Assembly (NCBI GenBank): GCA_013152435.1
Contig: JAADGJ010000122.1
Coordinates: 1 to 55,587, forward strand
Origin: Chloroflexota bacterium
GTDB taxonomy: Bacteria; Chloroflexota; Anaerolineae; DUEN01
Reading direction: 5' to 3'
DNA: 55,587 nt
Part shown: piece by piece, positions 22,005 through 34,450 of the stretch
Position numbering within the stretch: the stretch's first letter is position 1
Layout of the letters: every line of letters begins with the position of its first letter
The notes under the pieces: generated by a model
Database searches by the model: none
What the model was told of the DNA's origin: nothing
Seen by the model: only the letters and a program-made list of their open reading frames with translations
Translations under genes and position numbers: made by a program

Positions 22005-24026
22005 CTAGAAGCCGATGCCGTCTCGCATGACGAGCGGCAGCCAGAGCTTATAGAGCGCTGGCGTCGGTGTGCTCGTCGGTGTTGCGGTGGGCGTCGGCGT
22101 TGGCGTGTTCGTCGGCGTTGGCGTGTTCGTTGGCGTCGGTGTGTTCGTCGGCGTCGGCGTATTCGTCGGCGTCGCAGTCGGCGTTGGCGTTGGTGTGAAC
22201 GCCTGCTCGCCGAAGTCTACGACGTGCGTCTGGCCGGCGATGACCGAGACGGACACGATATCCGGGCTGGTGCTGGCGTACCCGGCCGGCTGCTGCTCCT
22301 CAACCGTGTAGTCGCCGGGCCACACCGGGGAGAACTCATACCAGCCGGATGGGAAGGTTGTGTGAACCGTCTGGACGATGGTACTCCCCTGCTTAAGATA
22401 CACCGTGACGCCAGAGATTCCAGTGGTCTCCTCATCGGGCGGCCACGGGTTGCGATGCCCGTCTCCATCCTTGTCGATGAACACATAGCCGACCACCTGC
22501 CCCGTGCCGGGGGCCTCATCGGCGCCGATATCGAAGCCGCTGCCCCGGGGCCGGCTGTCTCCGTCGATGTCCGTGGTCACGCCGACATCGATCCCCTGAT
22601 CCATGGCGGTCGAGTTGGGGCCGATGTGGTAGTCCCAGTTGGGCGGGTCGATGAAGTCGGGTGTGCCGAGGAGATTGTTCGTCGTTGTGATCGTGGTCCC
22701 CGCATCGGCTATGGCGTAGGTGGGATACCACAGCGTATAGTCGGCCAGGACGGCCACGGTGTCGGTGACCGTGGTGCTGATCCCGATCGTGTGCCCGGAG
22801 AGGATGGTATTCGTCATGTTCACCGTGGTGTACGGGCCGGCGACCAGGCCGGTCTCGTTGTTGTCGGCGATCGTGTTGTGGCGCAGCCTCGCCTGAAGAG
22901 GCGTCCCTTGCAGATCGGCGGTGCCCTCCAGGTAGATGCCATCTCCCTGTCCGGACGAGGGGCTGGCGAGATTGCCCGCGATGATGTTGTTGTCCATGTC
23001 CAGTGTGCTTCTCGAGGCGTACAGGCCACCGCCTTCGCCCGCGGCGCTAGGGCTGGCCGTGTTGCTGATGATGGTATTCGCCTGCAGGGATACGGTGCTC
23101 TCATCGAAGGATAAGCCGCCGCCTTCAGGCACCATCTCCTTGCCCGCTGTATTCCCCCGCACCATGTTCTCTCGCATGGTCACAGAGCTGGACTGGGCGT
23201 GCACCCCGCCCCCGTGTCCTCCGCTATTGTCACTTGCGGTGTTGTTTCGGATGGTGTTGTTCCACAGATAGGTGGTATTGCTATACACCGCGATGCCACC
23301 GCCCCAGCCGGTTCCCAGAGTGCTGGCGGTGTTGGCCTCGACCACGCTGCCGTACATCCTCAGGTTGCTCGCGTAGGCGTATACGCCGCCCCCAAATCCC
23401 ACGGTGTTCGTGGTGGTTGCGGTGTTGCTGATGATGACGCAGTTGGTGATGGTAGTGGTGCCTGGGGTTTCCGGATTGCCTACGATGTAGACGCCGCCAC
23501 CGGCGTCATTGGTTGTCGGCGCGGAGCCAAAGCCGGTTGCGTTTCCTCCGGTGATCCGGAGCCCTTCGATCGTGGGGGTGATGCTCCCGCTGATCACAAA
23601 GACGCGGCCGAGCCCTTTCGCGTCCAGGGTGGTGAGGTTGGGATCGGACGATGGGGTCCCGGTGAAGTCGGCGCTGTAGCCACCTTGGATCAGCACCGTC
23701 TTGGTGATGTAGACGATCTGGGTGATACCGTTGCGCGCGTGCACATCCGTGTAGACGCCGGTGGCGACACGGATCTCGTCGTCGAAACCGGCCACATCTA
23801 CTGCATGCTGGATGGTGGCACAGGGGGTTGCGCTATTCGTGCAGTCGTTGCTCGCATCGCTGCCTGTGGGGGCTACGTACCGGATGGCGCCGGTGCCAGC
23901 GGCCGCTTGAACGGAGGATGGACCGGTGGCAAATAGCATGAGTAGTGCCAGCAATAACATGGTCAGGGCGAAGGCCCCTACAGACAGGGCGATGCGGTGG
24001 CGTGCATGGGAGAGTGAGATGTTCAT
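22005..24026 (-). CDS. Secreted right-handed parallel beta-helix protein with TPT-rich stalk
   Basis: A 673-residue protein starting at ATG 24026 after AAAGGAGG. Residues about 14-42 are a signal peptide ending VQAAAG. Residues 45-500 are beta-helix coils with repeated phrases such as GGGVYAYASN, GGGIAVYSN, GGGVHAQSS and GGGLYASRS and many NNTI/SNTA turns, as in pectate-lyase-like or CSLREA-type surface proteins. About 500-605 is an SdrD B-like or Cna B-like domain (GYVFIDKDGDGHRNP, YEFSPVWPGDYTVEE). A TPTNTP repeat stalk follows, encoded by 18-bp DNA repeats at 22060-22200, and the protein ends YKLWLPLVMRDGIGF. That tail resembles the LPLV-type ends I associate with secreted Chloroflexota proteins, probably a surface-anchoring signal. 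It may bind or process polysaccharide; no catalytic residues are evident. Confidence 0.9.
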   Translation of the reverse strand: MNISLSHARHRIALSVGAFALTMLLLALLMLFATGPSSVQAAAGTGAIRYVAPTGSDASNDCTNSATPCATIQHAVDVAGFDDEIRVATGVYTDVHARNGITQIVYITKTVLIQGGYSADFTGTPSSDPNLTTLDAKGLGRVFVISGSITPTIEGLRITGGNATGFGSAPTTNDAGGGVYIVGNPETPGTTTITNCVIISNTATTTNTVGFGGGVYAYASNLRMYGSVVEANTASTLGTGWGGGIAVYSNTTYLWNNTIRNNTASDNSGGHGGGVHAQSSSVTMRENMVRGNTAGKEMVPEGGGLSFDESTVSLQANTIISNTASPSAAGEGGGLYASRSTLDMDNNIIAGNLASPSSGQGDGIYLEGTADLQGTPLQARLRHNTIADNNETGLVAGPYTTVNMTNTILSGHTIGISTTVTDTVAVLADYTLWYPTYAIADAGTTITTTNNLLGTPDFIDPPNWDYHIGPNSTAMDQGIDVGVTTDIDGDSRPRGSGFDIGADEAPGTGQVVGYVFIDKDGDGHRNPWPPDEETTGISGVTVYLKQGSTIVQTVHTTFPSGWYEFSPVWPGDYTVEEQQPAGYASTSPDIVSVSVIAGQTHVVDFGEQAFTPTPTPTATPTNTPTPTNTPTPTNTPTPTNTPTPTPTATPTSTPTPALYKLWLPLVMRDGIGF

Positions 24027-24425: not shown

Positions 24426-25634
24426 TCAACGTCGCCGCGCGGCGAAGTCGGGGACGGGCACTGGAGCGCCACCGCGTCGCACCGATTCCTGAGAGAGCGG
24501 GATGACGGCGCTCCAGGTCACGGCGTCGTATACGTCGATGGGGGGCGGGATGTCGTTCCGGATGGCCTCGACGAAATCGAGCAGCACGAAGAAGTCACCG
24601 CCGCCGTGACCGGCACCCGTGGCCCTCTCCCCCCACTGTCGCCAGGCCTCGTCCTCGTAGCGCTCCGCGTATGTCCATAAGGAACTCCAGGTCGCCTCGC
24701 CCCTCTCGGGGTCGGGTGGGCTGGCCCCCCGGTCGTGCCCATCGATCCAGACCAGGGGGCGCTCCCCGTCGTAGCGCGGGGAGACGTACGCGCCTCGAGT
24801 GCCCTGCAGCACGTAGTGGGTCATGTTGTGTGGGCGGGGGGATACCCAGTCCACGCGCAGCACGATCAGCGCCCCTCGTTCGGTCTGGATCACCGTCGTG
24901 GCGGAGTCTCCATGTTGGAAGTATCCGGGCCGCGCGGCGGGGTGATCGGCCCCCAGCCGCTCGGCCGCGTAGCGATGGGCCGCCTCCTCCCTCGTCATCC
25001 ATGTTGCCAGGCTCACCAGCCGGTCCGTACGGTTGATCCCCAGCCACTGGGCCACCGGCCCCAGCGAGTGTGTGGGGTAGCTGTTGCCGTTCACCTCCCG
25101 ACGGTAGCGCCCACGCCAGGTCAGCTCCCCGTTCTCATCGAATAGCAGATGGCGGCAGTCATGGATGTAGGCGCCCTCCGCGTAGGTCAGGTCGCCGAAG
25201 AGGCCATGGCGCACCATGCTGAGCACCAACCGGTTGGGGCGCGTGTAGCAATAGTTCTCGGCCATCATGTAGACGCGATCGGAGGCCTCCGCCGCCTCGA
25301 TCAGCGCCCATCCCTCCTCCAGTGTGCAGATGGCGGGCACCTCGCTCAGCACGTGCTTGCCCGCCGCCAACGCCTGGATCGCCTGGGCGGCGTGCAGGGA
25401 CAGAGGCGTAGCGATGAGCAGGGCGTCGCAGTCGCCCCGATCCAACAGATCCTCAAAACGGGAGAAGGCCTGGATCTCCGGGTCTTGTCTGCGCCAGGTC
25501 TTCAGCACCTCGGGATCGGGATCGCATATGGCGGTGAACCTCACCTGATCGCTCAGGTGGGAGGCTGCCTGGCGAAATGCCATCGCCCGGCGGCCGCCGA
25601 CGGCTCCCATCTTGATCGGCGTCGTGTGGGGCAA
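24426..25634 (-). CDS. Gfo/Idh/MocA-family oxidoreductase
   Basis: An upstream frame runs to 25721, but GAGGAGG lies just before TTG 25634, the likely start (MPHTTPIKMGAVGGRRAMAF), giving 402 residues. The N-terminal Rossmann domain has a glycine motif, GAVGGRR, and the strand VRFTAICDPDPEVL. The segment CDALLIATPLSLHAAQAIQALAAGKHVLSEVP is the usual NAD-domain end, but the lysine of the canonical EKP is Val here. The C-terminal domain includes ENYCYTRPN and HSLGPVAQWLG. Members oxidise or reduce sugars, inositols and sugar nucleotides, or hydrolyse glycosides by redox chemistry. It is 83 bp downstream of the lipoprotein gene. The substrate is probably a carbohydrate, by context only. Confidence 0.9.
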   Translation of the reverse strand: MPHTTPIKMGAVGGRRAMAFRQAASHLSDQVRFTAICDPDPEVLKTWRRQDPEIQAFSRFEDLLDRGDCDALLIATPLSLHAAQAIQALAAGKHVLSEVPAICTLEEGWALIEAAEASDRVYMMAENYCYTRPNRLVLSMVRHGLFGDLTYAEGAYIHDCRHLLFDENGELTWRGRYRREVNGNSYPTHSLGPVAQWLGINRTDRLVSLATWMTREEAAHRYAAERLGADHPAARPGYFQHGDSATTVIQTERGALIVLRVDWVSPRPHNMTHYVLQGTRGAYVSPRYDGERPLVWIDGHDRGASPPDPERGEATWSSLWTYAERYEDEAWRQWGERATGAGHGGGDFFVLLDFVEAIRNDIPPPIDVYDAVTWSAVIPLSQESVRRGGAPVPVPDFAARRR

Positions 25635-25717
25635 GGGAGACCTCCTCTGTTCAGGGATGGGATGGCCGGTCAGGGCCGCGGCGGCCGCGACCCTGACCGC
25701 TTTCCGGGAGCGTGTCG

Positions 25718-27724
25718 TCACTCACATTGCCATGTGTAGTCCGTGCGCAGCCAACAGCGAGGCCCTATCTGCTTGCCGGGCCTGTAGTAGGTGATGCGCC
25801 ACACGCTGCCCGGCTTCCCGCCACCGATCCGAATCCATCCCAGTCTGCTTCGGGCCTTGTTGCGGATCACCAATCCCTGGTTGGGCTTGCCGCCCAGGGA
25901 TACGGGGACCAGCCACTCGCCCTGCTTCAGAATGCCCAGATCGCGCAGCTCATCCGCCAGCCAGTCCAGGTCTCGCGTCTCCACACCCGGATCGCATCCG
26001 GATTGCCCGGGGAGCCGCAGCGCGATCTCCAGGCGCGTGGGATCGCAGCCGGGGACCCAGTACAGGTCGAAGAAGTCGGCGGCTGTCAGGGCGAACGGCA
26101 GCAGGTAGCGCCCGTTCACCCAACCCTGCTTGTTGGCGACGGCATCTCGGACCAGATACCACGGGCTGCCGCTCACGTCCACGGGGCCGTCCAGGATCGT
26201 CACGACCCCGTTGGGCGGGATCGTGTAGAATTTCGGGTTGTGCACGCCCGGCCCCGTCCGCATGTTCAACCCGTCCCACGCGCTTACCGGATCGACGCGG
26301 GCCAGGCTGCCGATGGGGAACATGCCGCCCATTTCGGCGATGAGGTCCGCCGCTCGGTTGATGGCGATGATCCACAGCGGCGGGGGCTCCGGCTGTAGCG
26401 CCAGGTTGGCCTGTCCCACCAGACGATTGGAGCTGTCGAAGGCCACGATGCCGTCGAATTGAAGCGGCGAGGTGGCGTCCATCTCCAGGGCGGCGGCCTC
26501 GTCGCCCACGAAGATCCCGCTGATGACGCGGGCGAGCCCGCTGCGAAGGATCGGATCGTTCTTGTCGCGGTAGCCCATGAGCAGGAGCTCATCCCCCGTG
26601 CGCACGCTGGTGGCGTCGCCCAGTCGGACGGCGGGCAGGGTGACGGAGGTGAGGGGGCGGTAGTCCGCGTCTCGGGTGATCTGGAGCAGGACCAGATCTG
26701 CCGTCAGGTCCACCGAGAGGACCTCGGCGTAGTAGGCGAGATCTGCCAGCTGCTCCGGCGAGGCGCTCCTGTATACGAGCACCTCGGCCCCCAGGGGCGG
26801 GGCGCCGATCTGCTCATAGTTGGCCAGGATCAGCCCATCGGATCGGATGATGACGCCCGTGCCGCTGGGCGGGTGCATTCCCGGCCCGGGTATGATCAGG
26901 ACCAGCGACTTGCTGAGCTGGCGGATGCGCTCCGCCAGGGTGGGTGTGGGGCTGGGCTTCGGTGTGGGCGTCGGCGGCCTGGGGGTTGGCGTGGGCGGGA
27001 TCGGCGATGGGGTCGGCGTGGGCGTCGGCAATTCATCGTGGAACCAGTGCCAGATCCCGTCTACCTGGGCCAGATGGGCGACCTCGCCTCGCTGCCATTC
27101 CTGGCCGTCACTACGGCCCGTGATGGTGTAGGCGATCTCGGCCACGTGGCCGTAGCTGCGGCCGCGATAGATCCATGTGTCCAGATAGCGGACCTCCTCA
27201 TAGTCGATTCGCAGCACCTCATAGGTTCGGGTGGCTTCCTGATATGCGGCGAACGCTTCCTTTTCGATGACCTGCTTGCTGTGCGGATGGAGGAGATCAT
27301 AGGCCCGGTCGTAGTCACGCTCGTTGAGCCAGCGATGGATCAGCTTCAGCGTCTCCTCCGGCCCGGGCACCAGGTTGACGGTTACCATCCCCTGCATCAG
27401 CGGGTAGACTGATTTGGGCTCGAAGCCGGGGGCGCTGACTTGAAGCTGTTCCTGCTCGGTGGCCCGGACGCGGAAGTATCCCTCGCTGTCGGTGGTGACC
27501 GTCTCCAGGCTGGAACGCACCTGGGCGTTGGCCAGGGGGTGCCCCGTGATCGCGTGCCGCACCGTGCCCTCGCTAATCGAGGGAGCGGGCGGCGATGTGG
27601 CTGTTGGGGCCGGCGTGGTTGTGGGAGCAACGGTGGGCGGGGGCATGGGAGCACATGCGACGACGAGAAGCAGCACGCAGATGAGGGGGAGCCACCGTTG
27701 GGCGGGAGAAGAAAGCCCTGTCAT
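25718..27724 (-). CDS. Lipoprotein with degenerate trypsin-like domain and SH3 domain
   Basis: The start is ATG 27724 after AAAGGAGG (the frame itself is open to 27826); 668 residues. Residues 11-24 form a lipoprotein signal with lipobox VVAC (Cys24). Then come a Pro/Thr stalk, a carboxypeptidase-regulatory-like beta domain (51-118), an NTF2-like helical-beta domain (123-230, LKLIHRWLNERDYDRAYDLL), a second PTP stalk (232-262), a trypsin/DegP-like fold (about 270-460) and an SH3-type domain (about 475-541, GLNMRTGPGVHNPKF). The protease signature is broken: the TNxHVV position reads ANYEQIG, and the GNSGGP position reads PLQFDGIV, although the ADLVLLQI strand is kept. It is therefore probably a binding protein on the outer face of the membrane rather than a protease. 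Confidence 0.85.
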   Translation of the reverse strand: MTGLSSPAQRWLPLICVLLLVVACAPMPPPTVAPTTTPAPTATSPPAPSISEGTVRHAITGHPLANAQVRSSLETVTTDSEGYFRVRATEQEQLQVSAPGFEPKSVYPLMQGMVTVNLVPGPEETLKLIHRWLNERDYDRAYDLLHPHSKQVIEKEAFAAYQEATRTYEVLRIDYEEVRYLDTWIYRGRSYGHVAEIAYTITGRSDGQEWQRGEVAHLAQVDGIWHWFHDELPTPTPTPSPIPPTPTPRPPTPTPKPSPTPTLAERIRQLSKSLVLIIPGPGMHPPSGTGVIIRSDGLILANYEQIGAPPLGAEVLVYRSASPEQLADLAYYAEVLSVDLTADLVLLQITRDADYRPLTSVTLPAVRLGDATSVRTGDELLLMGYRDKNDPILRSGLARVISGIFVGDEAAALEMDATSPLQFDGIVAFDSSNRLVGQANLALQPEPPPLWIIAINRAADLIAEMGGMFPIGSLARVDPVSAWDGLNMRTGPGVHNPKFYTIPPNGVVTILDGPVDVSGSPWYLVRDAVANKQGWVNGRYLLPFALTAADFFDLYWVPGCDPTRLEIALRLPGQSGCDPGVETRDLDWLADELRDLGILKQGEWLVPVSLGGKPNQGLVIRNKARSRLGWIRIGGGKPGSVWRITYYRPGKQIGPRCWLRTDYTWQCE

Positions 27725-28067
27725 GGTTGCACCTCCTTTGTTCGACCACCGGGCGGAACCGCCTCGGCAGCGCGAGAAGACGCAAAATGTTGAGGGGGCA
27801 AGTATGTGCTCATAAGTATAACACACTCTCGTTGATCGAGCGCCTATTTGGCCGGAGATGATCTTTCAAGATTTGACGTGCGACCACGGAAGTAGTAACG
27901 CAATCGCTCATATTGGCATATACGACGAAGACAGTGCCCCTATCTGTGCCGTCCAGTGCATGCCCGCGGAGCGCATCTCATGGGGGAAGCGGGCTTTACA
28001 GGCCCGGGAGGCGGGTGTACGATATGGCCAGGATATGGGCTCTCCTTTCATGAGTTGGGAGGGATAT
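27725..28067. other. Divergent regulatory spacer
   Basis: The spacer separates the lipoprotein gene (minus) from the amidohydrolase operon (plus). On the minus strand a TATACT at about 27813-27818 could be a -10 element, without a convincing -35. On the plus strand TTGACG at about 27875 could be a -35 with only a poor -10. An open frame continues upstream of 28068 to 27858, but the region looks non-coding. Confidence 0.35.
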
Positions 28068-28817
28068 GTGCGTTTCTTCGATTGCAACGTCTTCTTCGGG
28101 CTGCCGATGAGACGCCCGCTCGCCCCGGTCCCCACCGCAGAGGATCTGCTGGCTGAGATGGATCGCGCGGGTGTGGAGGGGGCCCTGGTCTGGCACATCG
28201 CGCAGCATGATGCCTCGCCCCAGGTCGGCAATCGGCTGCTGGCCGAGGCCATTCGGCCCTACCCGCGCCTGGTAGGGTGTTGGACCGTGCTCCCCAATCA
28301 GACGCGCGAGTTTCCCCCGCCTCCCCTCTTCTTCCAGCACATGCGAGAGGCCCGAATCGCCGCGCTGCGGGTCTTTCCCGGCTCCCACCGCTTCCTGCTC
28401 AACGCCGTGTCCATGGGGGATCTGCTGGAGGAGATGGTGGCCCGTCGGATACCGCTCCTCGTCTCCCTCCGGCGCGGCATGGAATGGCGTGACATCTATG
28501 CCCTGTTGGCCGAGTTCCCGGATCTGGTGTGCGTGATCTGCGACCACGGCAGTTGGGGCAGCGATCGCCTGTTTCGGCCGCTGCTGGAGCGCTATCCGCA
28601 TGTGTATGTGGACATCGCCCAGTACATGCTGGATGGCGGCCTGGAGGCCCTGGTGTCCGACTATGGGGCCACGCGAATGCTGTTCGGCAGCGGATTCCCC
28701 GAATCCTACTTCGGCGGCATGATGTTGGCCCTGCGACACGCGGGCATCCCGGACGAGGCTCGGGCGGCCATCGCCGGCGGCAACCTGGAGCGGATCCTGA
28801 AGGAGGTGCGCCTGTGA
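28068..28817 (+). CDS. Amidohydrolase-family (PF04909-like) protein lacking metal ligands
   Basis: The frame is open from 27858, but the protein pattern begins at GTG 28068 (MRFFDCNVFFGLPMRRP), with GGGAGGG at 28057-28063; an ATG at 28050 is the alternative. It has 249 residues and a TIM-barrel amidohydrolase-2 layout. Compared with the next gene, the metal sites are largely gone: the N-terminal HxH is FFDCNVF, the strand-end histidine is LLVSLRR, and the FGTDLP aspartate is FGSGFP. Only the CDHGSWG histidine remains. It therefore probably does not carry out metal-dependent hydrolysis and may be a regulatory or structural partner. Its TGA overlaps the GTG start of the next gene (GTGA), implying translational coupling and perhaps a heteromeric complex. 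Confidence 0.8.
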   Translation: MRFFDCNVFFGLPMRRPLAPVPTAEDLLAEMDRAGVEGALVWHIAQHDASPQVGNRLLAEAIRPYPRLVGCWTVLPNQTREFPPPPLFFQHMREARIAALRVFPGSHRFLLNAVSMGDLLEEMVARRIPLLVSLRRGMEWRDIYALLAEFPDLVCVICDHGSWGSDRLFRPLLERYPHVYVDIAQYMLDGGLEALVSDYGATRMLFGSGFPESYFGGMMLALRHAGIPDEARAAIAGGNLERILKEVRL

Positions 28818-29677
28818 TCGGACCTTCGGAGCTGGCCCGGGAGTTCTGGGAGTCAGGAAGGGTGGAGTCCTGTCCCATCTATGATATGCACGGACACATG
28901 GGGATCTGGCACTCCATCTATTTCCCCCGAGCCGACGCGGCCGCGATGATCCAGACCATGGACGAGTGCGGCGTGCGGATGCTGGTCTTCTCCCATCACA
29001 TGGCGCTCTTCGCCCCCGACGTGGGGAACGTGGCCAGCGTGCAGGCCGTCCGCCGATATCCGGATCGCCTGCGGGCGTACTGTGTCGTCAACCCCAACTA
29101 TCCGGAGCATCTGGATCGGGACCTGGCGACCTTCGAGTCGCATCGTGATGTGTACGTCGGATTCAAATTTCTGGCTGACTATCACGGCATCGCTCTCACG
29201 GACGAGCGCTATCAGCCCGCGTGGGAGTACGCGAACGAGCGGGAGCTGCTGATCCTGACCCACACCTGGGGCGGGAGCGCGCTGGATGGGCCGGACGTGA
29301 TCCGCCGGATGGCCGAGCGTTACCCGCGCGTCAGGCTGCTGCTGGCGCATGCCTGTCATGGGGACTGGGACGCGGCCGTGCAATTGGCGCGGGATTTTCC
29401 CCATGTCTATCTGGAGCTGACGGCCGTGTTCGACGATCGGGGCGTGCTGGAGAAGTTCGTGCGCGAGGCCGGCTCCGATCGTCTGCTCTTTGGGACGGAT
29501 CTACCGTGGTTCGATCCGCATCACGCGATCGGCGCCCTGCTCTCCGCCGACATCGATGACGAGGATCGGCATCGTATCTGTCATCGGAACGCTGAGCGCC
29601 TGCTGGCCCCCTTCCTGGGGGGAGGCTTGGATGACGGGACGGGCGGCGGGATACCATCGGGAGGGGGATTCCAATGA
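28814..29677 (+). CDS. Amidohydrolase-family (PF04909) metal-dependent hydrolase
   Basis: The start is GTG 28814, overlapping the previous stop and preceded by AGGAGG at 28801-28806; 287 residues. The barrel metal ligands are present: DMHGHMG (HxH), ILTHTWGG, LLLAHACHG and the C-terminal aspartate in FGTDLPWFDP. Family members are decarboxylases, lactonases and amidases acting on small carboxylated or cyclic compounds; the substrate here is unknown. The paired upstream paralogue has lost these ligands. The stop overlaps the DegT gene start (ATGA at 29674-29677), so three genes form a tightly coupled operon. The frame opened by upstream codons to 28529 is antisense-free shadow of the previous gene and was not used. 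Confidence 0.9.
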   Translation: MIGPSELAREFWESGRVESCPIYDMHGHMGIWHSIYFPRADAAAMIQTMDECGVRMLVFSHHMALFAPDVGNVASVQAVRRYPDRLRAYCVVNPNYPEHLDRDLATFESHRDVYVGFKFLADYHGIALTDERYQPAWEYANERELLILTHTWGGSALDGPDVIRRMAERYPRVRLLLAHACHGDWDAAVQLARDFPHVYLELTAVFDDRGVLEKFVREAGSDRLLFGTDLPWFDPHHAIGALLSADIDDEDRHRICHRNAERLLAPFLGGGLDDGTGGGIPSGGGFQ

Positions 29678-30951
29678 TGTCACAAGGCTATGAGAGGTTG
29701 GCGATCGAGGGAGGGACGCCCGCCAGGCGGCGGCCGGACCCGCCCATGTACCCTGGGGGGATGATGATCGATCGGGAGGAGGAGCAGGCGGTCTTGGAAG
29801 TGCTGCGCACCAAGCGTCTGTTCCGCTACTACGGCCCGCATCCGGGCCCCTCCAGGGTGGACGAACTGGAGCGGGCGTTCGCTGCCCACATGGGCGTTCG
29901 CCATGCTCTGGCTGTGACCTCGGGCACGGCGGCCCTGATCTGCGGCCTGCAGGGGATCGGGGTGGGCCCCGGGGATGAGGTGATCGTCCCCGCCTACACG
30001 TGGATCGCGTCCGCCTCCGCCGTGCTGGCTGTGGGTGCCGTGCCCGTGCTCGCCGAGGTGGATGCGTCCCTCACCCTGGACCCGAAGGACGTAGAGGCGA
30101 AGATCACGCCCCATACTCGGGCGATCATGGCTGTGCACATGCGGGGCGCGCCATGCCGGATGGACGAGCTGATGGCCATCGCCCGGCAGCATGGGCTCAA
30201 GGTGATCGAGGACGCGGCGCAGGCGAACGGCGGCGGCTACAAGGGACGGCGGCTGGGCTCCATCGGCGACGTGGGCTGCTTCAGCCTGCAGTTCAATAAG
30301 ATCATCACCGCCGGCGAGGGCGGGATGGTCATCACTGATGACGAGCAGGTGTGGAAGCGGGCGGTCATGTTCCACGACGTCATCGGCGGGCTGCGCAACG
30401 GATTCCCGGCTGACGAGATCCTGTGGGGCGTCAATTTCCGCATGCCGGAGCTGCTGGCCGCCGTGGCGTTGGTGCAACTCCGTCGATTGGATGGGCTGCT
30501 CACGGCCATGCGGGAGCGCAAACGCATGCTCAAGGCCGGCCTGGACGAGGTGGTGCGGCGCAAAGGCATCCGCTTTCGAGAGATCACCGATCCAGAGGGG
30601 GATACCGGCATCGCGTTGGTGTTCTTCATGGAGGGTCCCGAGGTGGCCGGGAGGGTCGTGGAGGCGTTGCGGGCGGAGAACATCGGCGCGAGCGTGCTGT
30701 ATCATCCGGATCGGGCGGATTACCATATCTACAGGCATTGGACGCCCATCATGGAGCGGAGGACCTGGACGCCGGAGGTCGGTCCCTGGCGCTGGGCGCG
30801 TCGGGAGATCCGGTATGCTCCGGACATGTGCCCGCGCACGTTGGACCTGTTGGGCCGCGCCGTCCATCTGGATGTCAACCCGCTGCTGACCAACGAGGAC
30901 GTCGAGGAGACGATCGAGGGGGTAAGCCGGGTGTTGGAGGCGCTGGCCTGA
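29674..30951 (+). CDS. DegT/DnrJ/EryC1/StrS-family PLP aminotransferase
   Basis: A 425-residue protein with its ATG at 29674, overlapping the preceding TGA; GGGAGGGGG is placed eight bases upstream. The fold-type-I PLP site is intact: TSGTAALICGL (phosphate binding), EDAAQANGG (Asp180, pyridine nitrogen) and the Schiff-base Lys209 in CFSLQFNKI, followed by GEGGMVITDD. Members transaminate keto-sugars or, as in AHBA synthase and sugar dehydratases, catalyse related reactions; they need an amino donor such as glutamate. Coupling to two amidohydrolase-family genes suggests metabolism of an amino-cyclitol or amino-sugar, but no sugar-nucleotide genes are adjacent. The N-terminal AIEGGTPARRRPDPPMYPG is typical of the AHBA/StsC-like subgroup. 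Confidence 0.93.
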   Translation: MMSQGYERLAIEGGTPARRRPDPPMYPGGMMIDREEEQAVLEVLRTKRLFRYYGPHPGPSRVDELERAFAAHMGVRHALAVTSGTAALICGLQGIGVGPGDEVIVPAYTWIASASAVLAVGAVPVLAEVDASLTLDPKDVEAKITPHTRAIMAVHMRGAPCRMDELMAIARQHGLKVIEDAAQANGGGYKGRRLGSIGDVGCFSLQFNKIITAGEGGMVITDDEQVWKRAVMFHDVIGGLRNGFPADEILWGVNFRMPELLAAVALVQLRRLDGLLTAMRERKRMLKAGLDEVVRRKGIRFREITDPEGDTGIALVFFMEGPEVAGRVVEALRAENIGASVLYHPDRADYHIYRHWTPIMERRTWTPEVGPWRWARREIRYAPDMCPRTLDLLGRAVHLDVNPLLTNEDVEETIEGVSRVLEALA

Positions 30952-31003: not shown

Positions 31004-31900
31004 CTACCCCTTCAGCCCCGTCAGCGCCACGCCCTGCACGATGAAGCGCTGCACGAAGATATAGAGGATAATGATCGGCATGATGGCGGCGACGGAGGCC
31101 GCGGTGAACAGGCCGTACTCCACGAAGTAGACGCCGATGAACTCCACCAGGCCGAGCGTGAGGGGGTACATGCGGCTCTCGGTGGCCACCACCAGGGGCC
31201 AGAGGAGGTCGTCGTACTTGAAGATGAAGACGAAGACCACCATGGCGGCCAGGCTGGAGCGCACCAGGGGCAGCACGACCCGCCAGTACGTGCTGAGCAG
31301 GCCGGCGCCATCGATCTTGGCCGCGTCGATGAGATCGTCGGGAATGGTGAACATCGTCTGGCGCATCAGGAAGATCCCGAAGGGGTAGAACATCCAGGGC
31401 AGGATCATGCCCCAGTACGTGTTCAGCATGGGGATGCCGAACGTGCGCTCGATGCGGAGAAGTAGGCCGTGCAGCGGAATGATGTACGTCGCGAAGGGCA
31501 CGGTCATGGTGGCCACGATCCCGTAGAACAGGAGGTCTCCAAACCGGGAGCGGTGCTTGACGAGGACGAAGCCGACCAGCGTGCTGGTGAACAGGACGAT
31601 GAGGGTCGTTCCGCCCGCGTAGATGAAGGTGTTCAGGAAGTAGCGGGCGAACTGCGGGGTCCACACGCCGATGTGATGCTCCAGGGTGAAGCTATGCGGC
31701 CAGAGGGTGGGGGGCACGCGCAGCAGCTCGCTGGACTCCTTCACGGAGGCCGTGATGACCCAATAGAAGGGGAAGAAGAAGATCAGCGAGAAGAGCAGAA
31801 GCCCCGCGTAGAGGATCGTACGCTCCACCGCCTGTCCCAGCCGGATGGAGATGCGCGGTCGTGCGGCCTTTGCTGTGAGAGGGTGTTCCGTCGCGGGCAT
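31004..31900 (-). CDS. Carbohydrate ABC transporter permease (MalG/UgpE type)
   Basis: A 298-residue inner-membrane protein with six predicted helices, starting at ATG 31900 (MPATEHPLTAKAARPRIS). The cytoplasmic EAA loop that docks the ATPase reads DAAKIDGAGLLSTYWRVVLP. N-terminal FPFYWVITASVKE and C-terminal FIVQGVALTGLKG are typical of MalG-type CUT1 permeases. It pairs with the MalF-type gene six bases upstream and the lipoprotein binding protein at 32885-34291 to form a sugar importer. No ATPase gene is present, as is common where a shared MsmK-like ATPase serves several CUT1 systems. The converging DegT gene ends 52 bp away. Confidence 0.95.
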   Translation of the reverse strand: MPATEHPLTAKAARPRISIRLGQAVERTILYAGLLLFSLIFFFPFYWVITASVKESSELLRVPPTLWPHSFTLEHHIGVWTPQFARYFLNTFIYAGGTTLIVLFTSTLVGFVLVKHRSRFGDLLFYGIVATMTVPFATYIIPLHGLLLRIERTFGIPMLNTYWGMILPWMFYPFGIFLMRQTMFTIPDDLIDAAKIDGAGLLSTYWRVVLPLVRSSLAAMVVFVFIFKYDDLLWPLVVATESRMYPLTLGLVEFIGVYFVEYGLFTAASVAAIMPIIILYIFVQRFIVQGVALTGLKG

Positions 31901-31906
31901 TGGGGA

Positions 31907-32818
31907 TTATTCCTCCAGGCTGGATGGCACGAAGCGGAACTGCAGAAGCGTGATGAGCACGATGATGACGAAGAAGATGACGGACATCGCGCTGGCGTAT
32001 CCCTCTTTGCCGTAGCTGAAGGCCGTCTCGTAGATGTTGTAGACCACGGTGTGTGTGGCGTAATTGGGACCGCCGCGCGGCTCAGACACGGCTCCCTGGC
32101 CGCCGGTCATGACATAGGTCTCGGTGAACATCATCAGGGTGCCGATGGTGTTGATGATGAGCACGAACAGGATCGTCGGCATCAGCAGGGGGAGCGTGAT
32201 GTTCAGGAAGCGGCGCCAGCGGGAGGCGCCGTCGATCATGGCGGCCTCATAGTAGACGTGGGGGATCGCTTGCAGGCCGGCCAGGTAGATCACCATGGCA
32301 TAGCCGATGTTCTTCCACACGCCCACGATCGCCAGGGAGGGCAGCGCGGTCTTGGTGCTGCGCAGCCAGCGCACCGGCCCCAGCCCGATCAGATCGAGGG
32401 CTGCGTTGAACAGCCCGATCCTGGAGGGCTCGAACATGTAGCGCCAGACCACCGCCACGGCCACCAGCGGCACCACGTAGGCGATGAAGTACGCGGCGGT
32501 GAAGAAGCCGCGCAGCGTCAGGTTGGTGATGCTGTTGACCAGGACGGCCAGGATCAGCCCGAGGATCATCACACTGGGCACGACCATGAGCGTGTAGTGG
32601 AAGGATACCTGGAGCGATTTGAGGAAGACCGGGTCATCCGTGAACAGGGTCTTGTAGTTCTTGAGGCCTACCCACTCCATCTGGAAGTATTGCTTCTTAT
32701 ACAGACTCCACGCGAACGTCTGGGCGATGGACTGCCACAGGACGAGGATAAAGAAAGCAGCGGTCACCAGGAGCACCAGGGTGGCGATCCAGTCTTTGGG
32801 CAGCCAGCGTTGGTTCAT
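31907..32818 (-). CDS. Carbohydrate ABC transporter permease (MalF/UgpA type)
   Basis: A 303-residue membrane protein starting at ATG 32818 (MNQRWLPKDWIATLVLL) with about six helices. The EAA loop is YEAAMIDGASRWRRFLNITLP. The region WVGLKNYKTLFTDDPVFLKSL is the usual periplasmic or external segment of MalF-like permeases, and the protein lacks the extra large loop of enteric MalF. It ends RFVPSSLEE, six bases before the MalG-type gene. A strong hairpin at 32837-32869 separates it from the binding-protein gene, which would let the binding protein be made in excess. Substrate probably an oligosaccharide or polyol, not determinable here. Confidence 0.95.
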   Translation of the reverse strand: MNQRWLPKDWIATLVLLVTAAFFILVLWQSIAQTFAWSLYKKQYFQMEWVGLKNYKTLFTDDPVFLKSLQVSFHYTLMVVPSVMILGLILAVLVNSITNLTLRGFFTAAYFIAYVVPLVAVAVVWRYMFEPSRIGLFNAALDLIGLGPVRWLRSTKTALPSLAIVGVWKNIGYAMVIYLAGLQAIPHVYYEAAMIDGASRWRRFLNITLPLLMPTILFVLIINTIGTLMMFTETYVMTGGQGAVSEPRGGPNYATHTVVYNIYETAFSYGKEGYASAMSVIFFVIIVLITLLQFRFVPSSLEE

Positions 32819-32884: not shown

Positions 32885-34291
32885 TTATCGTTCCGTCATC
32901 CAGATCGGGTTGGCCTCCCAGCCGTCCTTGCCCAGCAGGAAGCTGCTGTAGTCGTTCTCCTCGAGGATCTTCTGCATCTGCGGCTTCACCTGGGCGACGG
33001 CCTCGTCGATGGGCACGCCCTCGTCTCGGATCAGCGTCCAGGCGTTGCCCCAGAGCGGGACGATCTCGATGGGCCAGATGCCGGGCGCCCGATAGTTGCC
33101 GGGCTGCGTGGTGATCGCGATGGCGCGCCAGCGAGGGTTCTCCGGAGTGAAGTCCGGCTCGTCCCAGAGCTCCAGCAGGGAGGGGTGGGTGCCCCGGAAC
33201 TTTACGTAACGTCGCTGGTAGTCCGGCCCGACCAAGTAGCGCCACAGCGTCCAGATCGCGTTCAGCCGGTCCGGGTCCTCCGTCTGTGTGGTCACGGCGA
33301 AGCCCAGATCGTCGGAGGCCCGCCCGTAGGGGGGCTCGCCCGTGAAGGTGGGGTTCACCACTGTTCCCCACTTCAGGTCCGGATACTGATTGGTGAGGAA
33401 GCCCTGGACCCAGGTCCACTCATAGGCGGTGACAGCCTGTCCCTGGCCCAGGCGATCGCGCGGCGTCAGGGGTGAGAAGCGGCTGTCCAGCTTGTACTTG
33501 TCGAACAGGTCCAGGACGAACTGGTACGCCTCCTTCATCTCCGGGGAGTCGATCAGGACCTCCTTGTGGTTCTTGTAGGTCCAGCCGCCCAGCTGGAAGC
33601 AGACGGCGTCCGCCAGCGCGCTGCCGCTGCCGGCGAAGGTGAAGCCCCATTGCTTGACCTCATCCCCGTCCCAGATGGTCAGCTCCTGGGCCCACTTGAT
33701 GAAGTCCTCCCACTTGGTGGGGATGTCCTCCCATGTGTAGCCGTACTGGTCCAGCAGCTCCTCGTTGTAGTGGACGGCGCTGGTCATGTTGCCGTTGGGG
33801 AGCGCGTAGTACTTGGCGTCGGGATCCCCTAGCGGGATCTTGTAGACGTCCGCCACCCGGGCGCCCATCTCGGCCCGTACGTCGATGATCCCTTCGGGAA
33901 TCGGCTTCACGAAGTGGTTGGACCACAGGCCGGGCAGATGGGTCTCGTCGAGCGAGCTCAGGTCGGGTGCCTGGCCGGCCTGGTAGGCGGTCGCCATCTT
34001 GGCGGGGATGTCGGGCTCCGGGATGAATTGGATATCGACCTCGATGTTGGGGTTCCGCGCCTGGAACTCGCTCTTCATCACTTCCTTGGTCATCTCATTG
34101 ATGGTGCGGCGGTCGGTGAACCATGCGGTGAGCTTGACCTTTTCCTTCTCCGCTGGCGGAGGTGTGGCGCCCTCCGGCGCTGGCGCTGGGGCGGGGGGAG
34201 CACATGCTGCGATGAGGGCACCGGCGGCCGCGCTGCCCGCTAGAGAGAGGAATCGTCGTCGACTCAGGGACCGAGAAGCCAGAACGCTCAT
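32885..34291 (-). CDS. Extracellular sugar-binding lipoprotein of an ABC importer (Tat-type signal)
   Basis: The frame is open to 34450, but AAAGGAGAGG lies just before ATG 34291 (MSVLASRSLSRRRFLSLAG), giving 468 residues. The signal carries a twin-arginine motif, SRRRFLSLAG, and a lipobox ending at Cys30 (LIAAC), so a folded lipoprotein is probably exported by Tat and anchored to the membrane. A proline/alanine linker precedes the type-1 binding domain (KLTAWFTDRRTINEM ... FQARNPNIEVDIQFIPE), with the usual ALPNGNMTSAVHYNEELLDQYGY hinge. It delivers a carbohydrate to the MalF/MalG permeases downstream. The promoter at 34422-34450 is well matched to consensus. Confidence 0.94.
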   Translation of the reverse strand: MSVLASRSLSRRRFLSLAGSAAAGALIAACAPPAPAPAPEGATPPPAEKEKVKLTAWFTDRRTINEMTKEVMKSEFQARNPNIEVDIQFIPEPDIPAKMATAYQAGQAPDLSSLDETHLPGLWSNHFVKPIPEGIIDVRAEMGARVADVYKIPLGDPDAKYYALPNGNMTSAVHYNEELLDQYGYTWEDIPTKWEDFIKWAQELTIWDGDEVKQWGFTFAGSGSALADAVCFQLGGWTYKNHKEVLIDSPEMKEAYQFVLDLFDKYKLDSRFSPLTPRDRLGQGQAVTAYEWTWVQGFLTNQYPDLKWGTVVNPTFTGEPPYGRASDDLGFAVTTQTEDPDRLNAIWTLWRYLVGPDYQRRYVKFRGTHPSLLELWDEPDFTPENPRWRAIAITTQPGNYRAPGIWPIEIVPLWGNAWTLIRDEGVPIDEAVAQVKPQMQKILEENDYSSFLLGKDGWEANPIWMTER

Positions 34292-34421
34292 TTCACCTCT
34301 CCTTTCTGACTCTGACAAGCCACCTGTGTGGCCGTTGGGGGACACGGAACCGACGGTGTCGATGGGGATAGTAGCAGATTTAAGGTCGGGGAACGATGTA
34401 GGATGGAAATGTTGCGTTTTT

Positions 34422-34450
34422 ATCCTAACATACTTATGGTAGAGTGTCAA
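34422..34450 (-). promoter_or_regulatory. Sigma-70 promoter of the sugar importer operon
   Basis: On the minus strand, TTGACA (34450-34445) and TAGGAT (34427-34422) are 17 bp apart. The leader of about 125 bases before ATG 34291 contains GGTGTCGA and GGACACGG segments that might serve as operator halves. The remainder of the spacer, to 34605, holds a 9-bp hairpin GAGGGGCGA/TCGCCCCTC at 34538-34546 and 34556-34564, probably the end of the phosphatase transcript. Confidence 0.75.

Follow-up and report, generated by a model that had tools for sequence, protein, structure and literature searches.

A putative two-part amidohydrolase of bacteria and archaea in which one of the two barrels has no metal ligands

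The nearest known architecture for the gene pair described here is that of AibH1H2, the 2-aminoisobutyric acid hydroxylase of Rhodococcus wratislaviensis, an (alpha-beta)2 complex (PMC10401708, PMC12141560) of two paired amidohydrolase-fold proteins, one catalytic and one auxiliary. The oxygenase site of AibH2 consists of D25-x-H27, H211, E265, D337, H340 and D342 (PMC12141560). ACMSD and gamma-resorcylate decarboxylase have the same fold, and the subunits of the ACMSD homodimer are both intact. The ACMSD monomer is inactive, since each holds half of the needed active-site arginines and the neighbour supplies one, and the dimer displays half-of-sites reactivity (PMC10143591). The ligands of the human enzyme are His6, His8, His174, His224 and Asp291, and Arg235 comes from the neighbouring subunit (PMC9021598). 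Finally, the pseudo-dihydroorotases of Pseudomonas ATCase and fungal CAD-like proteins are barrels without catalysis that have been kept as structural partners (PMC4581275). No description of a ligand-less partner family within PF04909 was found in the open-access literature, where AibH1H2 and the pseudo-dihydroorotases come nearest; this is weak evidence of absence.

The window, that is, the whole stretch of 55,587 nt that was analysed, is contig JAADGJ010000122.1 of a Chloroflexota bacterium (GCA_013152435.1). It contains three plus-strand genes in the order A, B and DegT aminotransferase, and each junction is a 4-base overlap (Table 1). A preliminary description of this DNA had proposed that A is an amidohydrolase poor in metal ligands, that it forms a hetero-oligomer with an intact and closely homologous paralogue, B, as a non-catalytic or regulatory subunit, and that the two genes make up a compact three-gene pathway with DegT. 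The GTGA and ATGA overlaps have the coordinates and starts described there. The GTG start of gene A at 28068 is favoured over the ATG codons at 28035 and 28050 because a ribosome-binding-like GGGAGGG precedes it; the longer open reading frame listed with a start at 27858 is unlikely, as it lacks such a site and close relatives start near 28068. The second permease in Table 1 owes its name to its position between the permease and the binding protein, its cluster representative having no Pfam match below 1e-8.

Table 1. Coordinates of the A-B genes and surrounding features in the window
Feature	Position	Strand	Remarks
Gene A	28068..28817	+	249 aa; metal-ligand-free amidohydrolase barrel (putative pseudoenzyme subunit); PF04909 39.6 bits; AlphaFold2 pLDDT 94.4
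GGGAGGG, ribosome-binding-like	28057..28063	+	Ahead of the gene A GTG start
Gene B	28814..29677	+	287 aa; intact amidohydrolase with H26, H28, K118, H150, H179, D229; PF04909 93.1 bits
GTGA stop/start overlap, A-B	28814..28817	+	B GTG start inside the A stop
AAGGAGGTG	28800-28808	+	Upstream of the B start, within the coding end of A
DegT/DnrJ/EryC1/StrS aminotransferase	29674..30951	+	ATG start; PF01041 295 bits (cut-off 19.8)
ATGA stop/start overlap, B-DegT	29674..29677	+	
ABC transporter permease	31004..31900	-	Converges on DegT; clusters with permeases beside other A-B pairs; cluster representative is BPD_transp_1
Second ABC permease (candidate)	31907..32818	-	Shares a cluster with genes at other pairs
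ABC solute-binding protein, sugar type	32885..34450	-	Clusters with genes at other pairs; representative is SBP_bac_1
Gfo/Idh/MocA oxidoreductase, GH109-like C-terminal domain	24426..25721	-	PF01408 62 bits, PF21252 137 bits

Both proteins score above the Pfam Amidohydro_2 (PF04909) cut-off of 26.4 bits. The AlphaFold2 model of window A (pTM 0.92) has its best PDB match in 3irs (Z 23.0, 244 residues aligned) and also matches 3cjp (Z 22.8); decarboxylases, as well as chains of AibH1H2 and related oxygenases (8ful, 8sm6-8sm9), are among its other structural matches. The B half of an A-B fusion, as modelled, matches 3cjp with a Z of 26.6. Of the relatives with solved structures, ACMSD-type decarboxylases and uncharacterised proteins come closest.

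As had been noted, A keeps the barrel layout, and it reads FFDCNVF, LLVSLRR and FGSGFP where B has YDMHGHM, LILTHTW and FGTDLP. To this can be added the loss of the strand-6 ligand (VICDHG in A versus LLAHAC in B). Window A therefore has none of the five metal ligands (HxH, strand-5 His, strand-6 His and strand-8 Asp), and window B has all of them. When 101 A domains are aligned with 114 B domains, the columns corresponding to B positions H26, H28, K118, H150, H179 and D229 contain H, H, K, H, H and D in the B domains; in the A domains, the first column is mainly N, the position of the second ligand varies freely, and the remaining columns have no dominant metal-binding residue. When the 82 physical pairs are scored for the five ligands (H, H, H, H and D), all five are present in 76 of the 76 B proteins that have every column, and the 80 scorable A proteins have none (67 proteins), one (12) or two (1). 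Chance loss can be excluded because the pattern recurs in 82 pairs. The six B residues are invariant among 21 B proteins. D5, N7, G11, N55, P151 and L244 are invariant in a 20-sequence A alignment. They include neither a His nor a Cys that might replace a ligand, and the model is that of a normal barrel, so that neither gives a sign of alternative metal ligands in A. The fold, the descent and the loss of ligands together indicate that A is an amidohydrolase barrel without a metal site.

Like AibH1H2, A-B consists of two paired amidohydrolase-fold proteins. However, the HxH/K/H/H/D set of B is that of a hydrolase or decarboxylase, whereas AibH2 has the oxygenase site D-x-H ... E ... D-x2-H-x-D and carries out oxygen chemistry, and AibH1 still binds a mononuclear metal, whereas A has no canonical ligands in most pairs. 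AibH1H2 is not reported to be fused or linked to DegT in the literature consulted (PMC10401708, PMC12141560). B shares the ligand set of ACMSD and aligns to it over the length of B (hhalign probability 98%, E 5e-14; the human query sequence is identical to PDB 2wm1), but A-B is encoded by two genes, A has no metal site and the chains are shorter. The partner of the pseudo-dihydroorotases is a transcarbamylase rather than their own active paralogue, and they belong to a different superfamily branch.

The A-B pairing recurs in other genomes. Among 100 relatives, about ten genomes have A-type matches with a second amidohydrolase adjoining, several of them in multiple copies; when 400 genomes from this phylum were searched with a profile, 45 gave matches (E <= 1e-20). 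GTDB contigs, scanned with a conserved alignment of closer A proteins, yielded 59 loci, in taxa that include Brocadiia and Phycisphaerae (Planctomycetota), Zipacnadia and Hebobacteria (Armatimonadota) and, among the archaea, Bathyarchaeota and one further archaeon. B adjoins A in nearly every locus that is not cut by a contig end. In total, 82 pairs were found in at least nine phyla, with members in Chloroflexota, Planctomycetota, Armatimonadota, Lentisphaerota, Latescibacterota, Hydrogenedentota, Bacillota, Desantisbacteria and the archaea. The exact 4-base overlap is present in 60 of the 74 pairs encoded by separate genes, and three pairs have the order B-A.

About a dozen loci encode A and B as a fused protein. 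Five have a single open frame (L057, L059, L061, L125 and L149), and others belong to more distant fused lineages (L154, L155, L156, L158 and L162-L165). The fusions were aligned alone; a joint MAFFT alignment put separate A proteins onto the B half of the fusions. An A gene without an adjoining B is seen in one genus (L147 and L148; at L167 a B gene of the same strand follows after about 5.7 kb), and these three solo A proteins are ligand-less too. No relative within the A clade that has an intact metal site, alone or paired, is present among the loci found. At L147:8281-9893 and L148:8748-10859, the solo A is followed by an RraA-like aldolase in place of B, possibly a change of partner.

A genome-wide expansion of PF04909 was considered as the reason for the pairing and rejected, since the 12 PF04909 matches of the window genome include only one A-type pair. 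One genome of the same class, G061, has a large lineage-specific expansion: its PF04909 domains number 45, and five of its A-B pairs, of which there are about nine (among them L047, L049, L052, L056, L057, L061, L068 and L069), are within 6 kb of DegT. Another unusual arrangement is an overlapping amidohydrolase triple, B-A-B, with the A-type protein in the centre, near dehydrogenase E1/transketolase-type genes (L058:7356-9794).

The history of the pair appears to be long. In a FastTree phylogeny of 139 rows, a branch with SH support of 98 separates the A-type proteins, distant ones among them, from B, unpaired relatives and ACMSD, a result to be read with caution in view of the long branches. 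The few rows on the A side that look unpaired (L188, L193 and L194) come from loci where a B-type row is present as well. The close homology that had been assumed for A and B does not hold up. The window proteins are about 28% identical over a local alignment, and over the 82 pairs A is 20% identical to its own B and 20% to other B proteins; because A is no nearer to its own B than to any other, the split must be old. Mean identity is 37% within A and 38% within B, and A and B distances correlate with r = 0.885 over the 82 pairs; correlations within single genomes are mixed (r of 0.49, 0.95 and -0.36 with 7, 4 and 4 pairs). Being as conserved as B and correlated with it in distance, A is under selection and co-inherited with B, and is not decaying. 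Distant lineages (L152, L153, L157, L159, L161, L171 and L172) resemble the window pair very little, and they too have one ligand-poor member and, in several cases, the order B-A; the root of the A clade may lie with them.

We conclude that A is probably an obligate non-catalytic partner of B. A and B would be the two subunits of one enzyme, presumably a heterodimer. That a non-catalytic A forms a hetero-oligomer with the intact B is strongly, if indirectly, supported by comparison, namely by the pairing itself, the loss of ligands in A only, the frequent overlap, the fusions and the co-divergence, and the hetero-oligomer suggested in the preliminary description is borne out to that extent. 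The natural fusion L125, modelled as one chain, gave a pTM of 0.88, which covers the fused chain and is not a measure of an interface, and a pLDDT of 86; such a model would be expected if both barrels pack in a fixed manner. Judged from sequence comparison, A-B looks like a previously undescribed two-part enzyme, one half of which would be incapable of chemistry alone.

How A might contribute is suggested by the dimers of the ACMSD/gamma-resorcylate decarboxylase branch of PF04909, which the proposed A-B heterodimer would resemble. Following an ancient duplication, A would have lost its metal site and retained the interface together with an arginine, R167, that reaches into the pocket of B, and B would have retained the metal site and mostly lost the arginine. 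The resulting dimer would have a single working site and be built by translationally coupled synthesis. R167 belongs to the motif WGxDRxFRP (WGSDR in the window), where the helix that follows strand 6 starts. The column is Arg in 78 of the 82 A proteins (95%); in B it is Asp or Glu in 47 of 82 and Arg in 8 of 82. The comparison with R235/R239 of ACMSD is inexact, as the loop differs in length and hhalign places R167 a few residues off Arg235, and an Arg in this column is not present in all unpaired relatives and is absent from the most distant A lineages. The donation of R167 to the active site of B is therefore offered as a tentative proposal, to which we give somewhat less than an even chance. 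The broader idea, about as tentative or slightly more so, is that A-B pairs are widespread split-site amidohydrolases, in which A has lost the metal and kept the donated arginine and B has done the opposite, so that half-of-the-sites chemistry would have become fixed in the genomes of both bacteria and archaea.

The best of the other explanations is that A is a regulatory or assembly partner, one whose empty pocket serves to sense a metabolite, or one that aids the folding or metal loading of B, and that gives no catalytic residue. There are precedents, since AibH1 appears to keep its complex together (PMC12141560) and an inactive dihydroorotase is required to assemble the P. putida ATCase (PMC4581275), and the conserved residues on the pocket face of A could bind a ligand. 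This explanation is compatible with everything in our preferred reading except the trans-arginine step. Alone, however, it leaves unexplained why R167 is nearly completely conserved in A and replaced by an acid in most B proteins, and we consider it rather unlikely as the full account.

It is improbable that A is an enzyme itself, with a metal-free or alternative-ligand site, and that A and B carry out successive steps of a pathway. The catalytic face of A does have conserved polar residues (D5, N7, E81, R167 and D166), and PF04909 proteins have changed their chemistry before, as in the oxygenases AibH2 and PtmU3 (PMC12141560). However, D5 and N55 are common to B and look structural, and the absence of an invariant His or Cys and the free variation at the second-ligand position, both noted above, are not what such a site would predict. 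Fusion to and overlap with its own paralogue also fit a subunit better than a second enzyme.

Even less credit can be given to the possibility that A-B is an oxygen-dependent hydroxylase of the AibH1H2 type, in which B would hold a dinuclear site and A would be a structural barrel. The fold is the same, two PF04909 barrels are paired in both cases and AibH1H2-type structures match A, but B has H-x-H, K, H, H and D in all scorable pairs, and membership of B in this group is rejected by the ligand set and largely refuted. That A is a decaying duplicate without function, as its lost ligands might suggest, is refuted by its conservation, at a level equal to that of B, in open frames with a confident fold that form one ancient clade in at least nine phyla and are in some cases fused to B.

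PF04909 proteins are usually annotated singly as 'amidohydrolase family protein', and roughly half of the proteins in A-B pairs cannot be metal enzymes. B may be inactive if it is expressed alone, and assays of single PF04909 members may then fail. Should the trans-arginine reading be true, the pair would be a natural record of how a shared-site homodimer turned into an obligate heterodimer, one that nature has replicated dozens of times and supplemented with the fusions.

The surroundings of the pairs offer some indication of the pathway. Of 21 pairs in six genomes, 12 have a DegT gene within 6 kb, as compared to 1.33 expected from the density of DegT genes, and the observed number was not reached in 2 million simulations, and sugar-type ABC transporters also recur near the pairs. 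For example, L046 and L047 have, in one direction, DegT, a solute-binding protein, two permeases, A, B and a xylose-isomerase-like barrel. The proposed three-gene pathway is thus only partly upheld: DegT recurs, but it is often parted from A-B by transporter genes or is absent. By sequence, the window DegT is an ordinary member of the DegT sugar aminotransferases, from which it differs in its coupling to an A-B pair and, often, to an ABC importer. Its nearest solved structures are KdnA (5k8b), perosamine synthase and 2-deoxy-scyllo-inosose aminotransferase, and the motif FNKIITAGEGG holds the likely PLP lysine. A-B might hydrolyse or decarboxylate an amino-sugar- or aminocyclitol-like compound that the adjoining ABC transporter would import and the coupled aminotransferase would also handle, a doubtful assignment as to both substrate and reaction type. 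Other pairs have dipeptide-type transporters, URO-D and MTTB methyltransferases or RraA-like genes as neighbours, and this diversity suggests that different pairs have different substrates. The pair also provides a handle for testing an uncharacterised transport-plus-aminotransferase pathway across little-cultured phyla.

Gfo/Idh genes, identified by their cluster representative, are seen repeatedly near other A-B pairs, and the one in the window is a possible member of the pathway. An aminotransferase of another type is present at L166:2665-4800, where a B gene is followed (order B-A) by an in-frame fusion of an A-type pseudo-amidohydrolase domain and a class-III aminotransferase. The window also encodes, on the minus strand, two secreted-looking proteins with long Thr-Pro repeats (22005-24026 and 25718-27826); one has repeated N-rich segments resembling a right-handed helix, and the other resembles a trypsin-like protease plus extra domains.
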